A DNA stretch of 64,000 bases from Pandoraea apista. Its GTDB lineage: Bacteria > Pseudomonadota > Gammaproteobacteria > Burkholderiales > Burkholderiaceae. Below the pieces are notes generated by a model. It was given only the letters and a program-made list of their open reading frames with translations. It had not been told where the DNA came from and did no database searches. Shown one piece after another: positions 45,525-47,512 of the stretch (its first letter is position 1; the number at the start of each line of letters is the position of its first letter). The translations under genes and the position numbers were made by a program. Location: assembly GCF_001465595.2 (NCBI RefSeq), contig NZ_CP013481.2:4588001-4652000 (forward strand), read 5' to 3'.

Positions 45525-45953
45525 TTAGATCTCGAGCGACTTCGGTTGCTGCGCTTCGTGCGGATGATTGCCGTCGGCGTAAACCTTCAGCTTCTTGATC
45601 ATCGCATAGCCCAACGGACCCTTCGGCAGCATGCCCTTCACAGCTTTCTCGAGCGCACGGCCCGGGAAACGCTCTTGCATCTTGCCAAACGTGGTTTCGT
45701 AGATACCGCCCGGGTAACCCGTGTGACGGTAGTACTTCTTGTCGGTTTGCTTCGTGCCGGTAACTTTCAACTTGGCAGCATTGACGATGATGATGTAATC
45801 ACCCGTGTCAACGTGCGGCGTGAATTCCGGTTTGTGTTTGCCGCGCAGACGGCGTGCCACTTCGCTGGCGACACGGCCGAGGACTTTGTCCGTCGCGTCA
45901 ATCACAAACCATTCGCGCGTCACCTCTGCCGGCTTAGCGGAAAACGTCTTCAT
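45525..45953 (-). CDS. rplM: 50S ribosomal protein L13 (uL13)
   Basis: A 142-residue protein with [20 protein letters not shown] near the start and the [19 protein letters not shown] stretch near the end. First gene of the rplM-rpsI operon. Confidence 0.98.
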
Positions 45954-46106
45954 GATCGATCCAAATAAAATGCGTTTGCCCCATTAACACCAACTTCCTG
46001 CTTGTCTGCCGGCCGCGTCCTTACGATTTTGTGTCGCATGGCGCAGTCCTGTGCTTGCAGGCTCTCCCTGATGCTTTTTCCGTGGGCATTCCCGGAAAAG
46101 CCGTTG

Positions 46107-46136
46107 ATTATACAGAAAAAAGCACCCCCCGGTAAA
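46107..46136 (-). promoter_or_regulatory. Promoter of rplM-rpsI
   Basis: On the minus strand a TTTACC -35 (46136-46131) and a perfect TATAAT -10 (46112-46107) are separated by 18 bases. The leader to the rplM ATG would be about 145 bases, long enough for regulation, but no L13-type structure was recognised. Confidence 0.7.
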
Positions 46137-46168
46137 CCGTCGCAGGTAAACCGCGATTCCGGCGGGAC

Positions 46169-46201
46169 AAAAAAAAAACCCGAACCTCATGGGTCCGGGT
46201 T
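46169..46201 (-). terminator. Intrinsic terminator of the candidate small RNA
   Basis: On the minus strand aacccggaccc pairs with gaggttcgggtt (one mismatch in a ten-pair stem) and is followed by about ten T. It faces away from rplM and cannot serve OsmC, which is on the other strand, so it must belong to a minus-strand transcript between them. Confidence 0.85.
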
Positions 46202-46266
46202 AAATCCACCAAAGGAGGAGGGTGGAGGAGACACTTGCAGGATTGCTGTGAAGCACAACAACCAAT
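46170..46266 (-). ncRNA. Candidate small regulatory RNA with anti-Shine-Dalgarno loop
   Basis: An unannotated transcript of about 97 nt inferred from signals. A promoter lies at 46301-46273. RNA from about 46266 folds into three hairpins: a 5' one (UUGUUGUG / CACAGCAA); a middle one with stem UCCACC/GGUGGA (46226-46221 with 46210-46205) and loop CUCCUCCUUU; and a terminator stem followed by ten U. The loop is the exact complement of an extended ribosome-binding site, and a second CUCC run flanks it. Such loops occur in Hfq-dependent small RNAs that block translation of many messages; related C-rich designs are known in Burkholderia and Neisseria. It could also be the leader or tail of something unseen, but no credible protein is encoded. 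Confidence 0.65.
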
Positions 46267-46272
46267 GACTGA

Positions 46273-46301
46273 AGTCTAGCAAATCAGATTGTGCGACGCA
46301 A
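46273..46301 (-). promoter_or_regulatory. Promoter of the candidate small RNA
   Basis: TTGCGT (46301-46296) and TAGACT (46278-46273) on the minus strand with the ideal 17-base spacer. The surrounding 200 bases are markedly AT-rich compared with the rest of the window. Confidence 0.65.
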
Positions 46302-46606
46302 GAAAATTTATAGTGCGAAATACAACACCACAATATGAAATGCCAAAACAATAAGCAAAAAGCCAATATCGTTAATAAAATCAATTGCTTACACAACAAA
46401 CCCAGCCAACTTCTACGGCTCAAATAGAGGCGACCAACTAAATTTAGGGTTTATCCCCCTGAAAACCCGATCAAAAAAGCGCCAATATTGCGACGCAGCA
46501 ACCGAAGCCATTCGGGATGGCTTCCAAGGTTCGCGGGCGGCATCGTACGCAGGTTTGCGGAAGCCGCTACAATTTTTGCTTGAATGGGATATCGGGGTTT
46601 CGAAAT

Positions 46607-47029
46607 ATGGAATGCAAGGTGAGTTGGATGGGCCAGGATGGCATGGCCTTCGTCGCGCAAACGGGTAGCGGCCACATCGTCGCGATGGACGGCGCGCCGG
46701 AAGGCGGCGGCCACAATCAGGCACCGCGTCCGATGGAAATGCTGCTGGTCGGCACCGGCGGTTGCACCGCGTACGACGTGGTGCTGATTCTCAAGAAGAG
46801 CCGCGCCGAAGTGAAAGATTGCAGCGTCACGCTCAAGGCCGAGCGCGCGAGCGAAGACCCGAAGGTGTTCACCAAGATCCACTTCCACTTCACGGTCACA
46901 GGCCGCAATCTGAACCCGGCCACGGTGGAGCGCGCTGTCACACTCTCCCACGACAAGTACTGCTCCGCGTCGATCATGCTCGCCAAGACGGCAGAGCTTA
47001 CGCACAGCGTCGAGATCGTCGAAGGCTGA
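46607..47029 (+). CDS. OsmC/YhfA-family protein
   Basis: A 140-residue OsmC-fold protein. It starts MECKVSWMGQDGMAFVAQTG at 46607 and has the two redox Cys positions of the family: one in LVGTGGCTAYDVVLIL and one in SHDKYCSASIMLAKTA. Members reduce organic peroxides or, in the YhfA group, have undefined roles; the sequence reads closer to YhfA. It is monocistronic, ending in a terminator shared with rnpB. Confidence 0.9.
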   Translation: MECKVSWMGQDGMAFVAQTGSGHIVAMDGAPEGGGHNQAPRPMEMLLVGTGGCTAYDVVLILKKSRAEVKDCSVTLKAERASEDPKVFTKIHFHFTVTGRNLNPATVERAVTLSHDKYCSASIMLAKTAELTHSVEIVEG

Positions 47030-47087: not shown

Positions 47088-47102
47088 GCGTTTTATCGGG
47101 AT

Positions 47103-47512
<410 letters not shown>

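Follow-up and report, generated by a model that had tools for sequence, protein, structure and literature searches.

In Burkholderia cenocepacia, the double-hairpin RNAs ncS03, ncS05, ncS27 and ncS62 belong to the Rfam family RF02278, for which growth inhibition on overexpression is reported, and overexpression of ncS27 slows growth (PMC5688073). Glucose medium, biofilm growth and starvation all raise the levels of ncS27, ncS03 and ncS05, and what controls the accumulation of these sRNAs in B. cenocepacia is stated to be unknown (PMC5688073). A second described system, S17 of Bordetella pertussis, is processed by RNase E at a GU/GU site and binds Hfq; its 5' Site 1 carries the repression of BP2158, as demonstrated by compensatory mutation, its candidate targets include 32 transporter-related genes or operons, and its authors postulate a repressor that is not yet known (PMC11722255). 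On the protein side, PhaR leaves phasin promoters for nascent PHB granules (PMC9049629, PMC11332829), and PhbF of Herbaspirillum, a protein with high similarity to R. eutropha PhaR, has the DNase-footprinted motif TG[N]TGC[N]3GCAA (PMC3206438). Here we analyze a 64,000-nucleotide stretch of the Pandoraea apista genome, referred to as the window, and describe an sRNA gene in it that may bring these systems together.

The sRNA gene lies on the minus strand at 46169-46266, between rplM (45525-45953, minus strand) and an OsmC gene (46607-47029, plus strand; Pfam OsmC match of 70.2 bits), and its features are listed in Table 1. A first-pass annotation, made from the sequence alone, had described an RNA of about 97 nt with three hairpins and a ten-U terminator in an AT-rich gap, and each of these statements is borne out. 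The GC content is 0.478 across the gap (45954-46606) and 0.379 at 46267-46480, as compared with 0.636 for the window; the three hairpins appear in the predicted fold; and the U-run is ten bases long, reaching one base past the end first assigned. The predicted fold of the 97-mer has a free energy of -34.4 kcal/mol and a z score of -4.17, with 0 of 200 shuffles as good, whereas the 64-nt core by itself gives a z score of -2.80, with 5 of 200 shuffles as good. The start site at 46266 is predicted from the sequence. Elsewhere in the window, an RNase P RNA of class A is found at 47101-47510 on the minus strand (RF00010, 291.6 bits).

Table 1. Features of the sRNA locus, in positions of the window.
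Feature	Position	Strand	Basis
Predicted primary transcript of the RF02278 sRNA, ~97-98 nt	46169..46266	-	Promoter spacing, fold, terminator
Conserved core, Betaproteobacteria toxic sRNA	46170..46233	-	RF02278, 70.3 bits, E 3.8e-12
5' seed UGUCUCCUC, largely unpaired	46225..46233	-	Fold and conservation of GTCTCCTC
First core hairpin, loop CUCCUCCUUU at 46211-46220	46205..46226	-	Fold, compensatory changes
Terminator hairpin, then U10 at 46169-46178	46177..46201	-	Fold, sequence
5' leader hairpin, predicted removal by processing	46241..46263	-	Fold
Promoter: -35 TTGCGT 46296-46301, spacer 17, -10 TAGACT 46273-46278	46273..46301	-	Alignment, spacing
Phasin/PhaR-type operator box TTCTTGCGTCGCACAAT overlapping -35	46288..46304	-	Phasin-trained matrix, 19.4 bits
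Second box of phasin type, osmC side	46485..46501	.	Matrix, 16.6 bits
Candidate rplM promoter TTTACC-18-TATAAT, downstream of the sRNA terminator	46107..46136	-	Consensus scan, 10 of 12

The promoter had been called consensus-like with a 17-base spacer. The spacer holds, but the two hexamers agree with the sigma-70 consensus by eye at only three of six and four of six positions, and since this sum of 7 of 12 leaves TTGCGT-17-TAGACT absent from the list of a consensus scan with a threshold of 9 of 12, the wording was too strong. The promoter is weak by consensus yet conserved: CTTGC and the -10 region are kept in 26 aligned Pandoraea-type loci. The sequence of the leader hairpin is nearly invariant in 25 of these 26, with L024 differing.

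Lying on the same strand as rplM, directly 5' of it and with a terminator at its end, the element might be read as an attenuator, a terminated leader acting in cis on the rplM-rpsI operon, and not as a separate sRNA. We rejected this reading, which we regard as highly improbable, because a separate rplM promoter candidate follows the terminator (the scan found one such candidate, against 0.9 expected in shuffles of the region) and because paralogues with the same core occur at loci unrelated to rplM in the same genome; moreover, the relatives of the element are free trans-acting sRNAs (PMC5688073, PMC11722255).

Judged by its sequence, the sRNA is a genuine member of RF02278. The core matches the family model over its full length of 64 positions at 70.3 bits, above the cut-off of 50 bits, and the family's CU-rich 5' end followed by two hairpins, the second of which is the terminator, is seen in both the fold and the alignment. 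As the match lies above the cut-off, homology to the C-rich-loop RNAs of Burkholderia, previously called unproven, is now established, RF02278 being common to this sRNA and ncS27. A covariance search returned a match at E<=0.001 in 48 of 61 genomes (this one and 60 relatives) and in none of 14 control genomes, and 41 of the 61 have RF02278 over its cut-off. This P. apista genome itself carries four copies over the cut-off. Copy number is expanded in some relatives, with 14 matches at E<=0.001 in Herbaspirillum sp. CF444 and 10 in Janthinobacterium sp. LM6, six of the latter within ~30 kb, and in the reduced 1.2 Mb genome of a member of the same genus (G003) neither the sRNA nor PhaR is found.

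The position beside rplM was surveyed in the best 80 of at least 589 named RplM records, three of which (L052, L072 and L092) have little upstream DNA; the named RplM closest to that of the window, at 99%, is from Pandoraea aquatica. An sRNA match at E<=2.5e-7 is present in 34 of the 80 loci, and weaker matches lie upstream of rplM in L071 (E 0.0036) and L042 (E 0.023); all 36 rplM-locus matches are upstream of rplM and on the rplM strand. Three matches of our covariance model R1 at E 0.21-0.38, downstream of the rplM start, were taken as noise.

The annotation had proposed that the sRNA acts on ribosome sites and that its central loop, as a mimic of the anti-Shine-Dalgarno (anti-SD) sequence, does so. 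The first proposal is likely right, as far as the sequence tells. With regard to the second, the loop and the 16S 3' end of this genome have CCUCCUUU in common, so the anti-SD likeness is real; the acting part, by sequence conservation and by analogy with S17, is nonetheless likely to be the unpaired 5' end rather than the loop. Among the 36 rplM-locus matches of model R1, the 5' seed string is present in 33 and the seed GUCUCCUC is missing in three, whereas the CU anti-SD run of the loop is present in 28 and missing in eight, although R1, built from an alignment (A1) of 53 seed-string sequences, favours seed-bearing matches. The loop run is gone, with the 5' end retained, in four Polynucleobacter loci (L087, L088, L094 and L097) and in L093, a locus of unclassified Burkholderiaceae. 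The 53 sequences of A1, like the 68 promoters considered below, were found via a string containing the seed, and the 30 loci found by Rfam's model provide the fairer count; here the seed is present in 28 and the CU loop in 26, arguing that both are widely kept and differ only modestly in this. Compensatory changes are seen in the stem that follows the seed: over the 53 sequences, one pair has 10 double-change cells and another has 6, these being counts of cells and not of events; A1 recovers the first hairpin only and not the terminator.

What favours the 5' end is above all that Site 1 carries the repression by S17. A general damping of translation, in which the central loop would pair with nearly any strong ribosome site, is in our judgment improbable. 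The stretch shared with 16S rRNA, the retention of the CU loop in most copies of both counts and the naming of the family as toxic, after growth inhibition of E. coli (PMC5688073), are in its favour, whereas the loop run is lost more often than the seed among the rplM-locus matches, S17 represses through its 5' site and leaves exponential growth of E. coli BL21 unimpaired, and the published S17 targets form a defined set (PMC11722255). The likeness of the loop to the 16S 3' end thus stands, while conservation and the S17 mutants speak against the loop as the acting part: its emphasis was probably secondary, and the loop is disfavoured as the main seed.

Pairing with "almost any strong ribosome site" also appears too wide if the whole seed pairs. 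The full seed complement ahead of a start codon, GGAGGAGACA-N2-10-ATG, occurs at seven places in this genome and its reversed pattern at none, a zero that shows only how SD-like the motif is. Five of the seven sites head long ORFs, all of which encode transporters (three MFS proteins, one NMT1-type binding protein and one ABC permease), though the sample is small; the other two (L229 and L232) precede short ORFs only and were left out as targets. Duplex energies were set aside because a start outside the candidate set reached -29.4, a value as good as those of the candidates (-27.9 to -37.4).

Upstream of the cores in many genera, the sequence (C)TTGC-N3-GCA[CG][CA]A is seen at the -35 position. 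This box resembles the footprinted PhbF motif, and the copy in the window has one mismatch to the PhbF consensus by eye. In the phasin promoter of this genome, TGC-N3-GCA occurs twice, at positions -183 and -128 relative to the start codon, and of 31 phasin loci 27 have at least one such box within 300 nt and 20 have at least two. The PhbF-like pattern TTGCNNNGCASMA alone is unspecific across the genome, where it has 148 sites and its reversed control 94, so we used a trained matrix, which is 17 nt long, symmetric and trained only on 54 boxes of 27 phasin loci. When this phasin matrix was applied to 68 sRNA promoters, dereplicated from 110 copies and each compared with 200 dinucleotide shuffles, 54 reached p<=0.05 and 42 reached p<=0.01. 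These 54 include eight in which the best box is away from -35 (L003, L063, L065, L093, L120, L123, L129 and L190), and the 68 are seed-bearing by construction, copies without the seed string (e.g., L183, L184 and L192-L194) being excluded. Among the controls, p<=0.05 was reached by 0 of 33 stretches between the sRNA and rplM, 2 of 36 upstream of rplM genes where the sRNA string was not found and 5 of 68 placed arbitrarily in the loci; at p<=0.01, all 137 control stretches were negative.

The spacing of the box fits a promoter element. Among 51 boxes of at least 11.5 bits, 35 lie exactly 17 nt from a -10-like hexamer, and in 39 of the 51 boxed promoters a -10-like hexamer is found 16-18 nt from the TTGC hexamer, as compared with 8% at random offsets; six of the 12 boxes outside this spacing sit ~3 nt nearer the -10 (L002, L005, L006, L007, L131 and L191). 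By matrix and by spacing, the sRNA promoter has an operator box like that of phasin promoters. The box in the window ranks first in the 64 kb (p 0.005 against 200 shuffles). Lesser matrix matches are common, with four sites of at least 11.5 bits in the window and 0 to 5 in five shuffled windows, so that it is the rank, score and place of this box that stand out. The second-best box of the window lies in the same intergenic gap as the first, ~197 bp from it, and has no -10 by eye at 17 nt; all 26 of 26 Pandoraea-type loci have such a distal second box, and its position hardly varies. Sass 2017 mentions "a common upstream motif" of three copies (Fig. S3), which may be the phasin-type box.

The box suggests that the sRNA is controlled by PhaR, the PHB-responsive repressor. 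This genome encodes a phasin and a PhaR with both Pfam domains (PF05233 and PF07879). An alternative would keep the same RF02278 sRNA and the same seed mechanism, with the box either serving a different regulator that recognizes a similar palindrome or being just a favoured -35 sequence of these promoters. Several observations lend it weight. The box is present in G029, where PhaR is undetected, and it is missing from some copies in genomes that do have PhaR: of the four copies here, the box keeps the standard -35 spacing only in that of the window, whereas in L002 it is ~3 nt nearer the -10, and L003 and L004 have none at that place. The rplM-linked copies of Burkholderia likewise have a degenerate box (L038, p 0.13; L041, by eye) although PhaR is encoded in both genomes, so ncS27 itself may lie outside the PhaR regulon. 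The level of S17, moreover, follows the Bvg state (PMC11722255). Against the alternative, the matrix that finds these boxes comes from phasin promoters alone, the control stretches are without the box, and the palindrome extends past the -35 hexamer into the spacer (GCACAA). The copies in three PhaR-less genomes show no significant box (L114, p 0.11; L125, p 0.50; L127, p 0.06; the PhaR-less genomes G073 and G078 were unscored), which favours the PhaR reading, and the phasin 3'UTR siblings described below form a separate link to the same genes. We consider the alternative rather unlikely, and control by PhaR remains our preferred reading.

The co-occurrence of PhaR and the sRNA, counted by hand, is weak: among 31 genomes selected without regard to the sRNA locus, the sRNA is found in 14 of 19 with PhaR and in 4 of 12 without it (Fisher p 0.06), the latter figure becoming 3 of 10 when G003 and G029, which were added from the genus, are left aside. 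Over 49 genomes, 18 of them picked by the RplM locus, the figures are 29 of 34 and 6 of 15 (p 0.0043). No TGC-N3-GCA occurs within 400 nt upstream of the phaR gene of this genome. The rise of ncS27 on starvation does not obviously correspond to PHB accumulation. A literature search of partial coverage found no link of RF02278 to PhaR or to phasin 3'UTRs. At a further locus, L143, the box TTGCGTCGCACAA (G000:C1:284723-284735) stands just past a TATAAT; the gene there reads by eye like a GNAT acetyltransferase and is, from this box, a further candidate for control by the regulator of the phasin-type box.

The phasin genes are linked to the sRNA in a second way. The seed string occurs within 330 nt past the phasin stop codon, before a hairpin and terminator, in 10 of 31 phasin loci (L166, L198-L200, L204, L207, L209, L210, L213 and L214), four of which are from this genus (L166 and L198-L200) and include that of the present genome. 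The remaining 21 loci are without the string in this place; the phasin ORF of L215 is probably miscalled, so its 3'UTR is poorly covered. When eight of these sibling 3'UTRs were folded, most of the seed was unpaired before two hairpins (three in one case) in all eight; the z scores lie between -7.04 and -1.82, the latter being that of the sibling of this genome (8 of 200 shuffles as good). Rfam's model detects 7 of the 31 phasin loci at E<=1, with a best score of 42.1, so that none of them reaches the RF02278 cut-off. It misses the sibling of this genome, which R1 scores at E 0.13 and which we regard as weak. Model R1 gives nine matches in 32 loci of the phasin search, with E 0.0002 to 0.13 and all downstream on the phasin strand, and 0 matches in 39 other loci.

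Six phasin 3'UTR elements were used to build a second model, R2, which at E<=0.01 has matches in 76 of the 200 Burkholderiales genomes searched. Thirty R2 loci were returned, of which eight lie just downstream of a phasin gene (one being the training locus from this genome), two by rplM and 20 by neither. The seven new phasin-linked loci, two of which (L242 and L243) are from one genus, contain the exact seed in four cases, a near form in two and none in one. Since the seed is present in 18 of the 27 R2 loci with full flanks, some R2 matches are mere terminators. In L260/L267 (G058), L249 (G190), L268 (G059) and L269 (G037), phaR and the phasin gene are divergent and an R2 element follows the phasin; a clear seed among these is seen only in L260/L267.

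The reading that we favour, and hold to be probable with some reserve, is that of a trans-acting RF02278 sRNA with a 5' seed for SD regions, a PhaR box at its -35 and siblings in phasin 3'UTRs. Family, conservation, seed, box match and spacing, the PhaR and phasin genes and the 3'UTR siblings come from sequence, and from there we infer processing, Hfq, pairing, repression and PhaR binding. The sRNA would have a promoter of its own for transcription; RNase E would then cut the transcript at the conserved GU/GU site, removing the 5' hairpin and leaving ~64 nt with the free 5' end UGUCUCCUCC; the conserved core is thus the predicted processed short form, by analogy with the GU/GU site of S17. The 5' end may then pair with SD regions of the type complementary to the seed and block initiation, chiefly of uptake genes, and opening of the stem and the CU loop, where present, could help this pairing. 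PhaR on the -35 box would silence the sRNA as long as no carbon goes into storage; as PhaR departs to nascent PHB granules, the sRNA would come on and carbon uptake would be lowered. The seed-sharing siblings from phasin 3'UTRs would feed the same output.

A wider reading, to which we give an even balance of belief and doubt, is that the "toxic" sRNA family of Burkholderiales would be the RNA arm of a carbon-storage regulon, comprising PhaR on phasins and sRNAs, sRNAs from phasin 3'UTRs and repression of uptake, and that PhaR would be the repressor postulated for S17. The kind of sRNA is already known; what is new is the box in common with phasin promoters and the siblings in phasin 3'UTRs. 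Together, the shared operator and the siblings offer a specific and cheaply testable answer to how RF02278 sRNAs are controlled and, if true, would connect PHB storage with a family of growth-slowing sRNAs that is widespread, which would matter for PHB production strains.

Compared with the described systems, the likeness to Neisseria RNAs put forward in the first-pass annotation holds in design and is otherwise weak: NmsR (RF02877) has a CU-rich unpaired 5' end and loop and a terminator in common with the sRNA, and membership of RF02877 was rejected at 32.7 bits against a cut-off of 52. The PhaR/PhbF regulon shares the TGC-N3-GCA operator core with the sRNA promoter, and its described passages name no sRNA as a target (PMC3206438). 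S17 of B. pertussis has the same family core as the sRNA (PMC11722255), and three loci of Achromobacter and Bordetella sp. (L171, L175 and L176) have the same initial 33 nt of the core as the window copy; the Achromobacter loci L171 and L175 have TTGCAT-17-TACTAT, identical to the published promoter elements of S17 (PMC11722255). S17 differs in lying beside coq7, in having a 190-nt precursor and in being higher in the Bvg+ mode (PMC11722255). The ncS RNAs share with the sRNA a CU-rich 5' end, two hairpins, a U-run and several copies per genome, and for ncS27, too, a longer primary form is described that undergoes processing (PMC5688073). The earlier comparison with ncS27 was apt, as the two belong to the same Rfam family and the rplM locus is also occupied in Burkholderia (L038 and L041). 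Unlike these rplM-linked copies with their degenerate boxes, the window copy has a phasin-type box at its -35. An orthologue of ncS27 would be expected upstream of rplM, with a 5' leader hairpin and a length of ~92 nt; on the grounds of locus, family and size, the sRNA described here is probably the local counterpart of ncS27.
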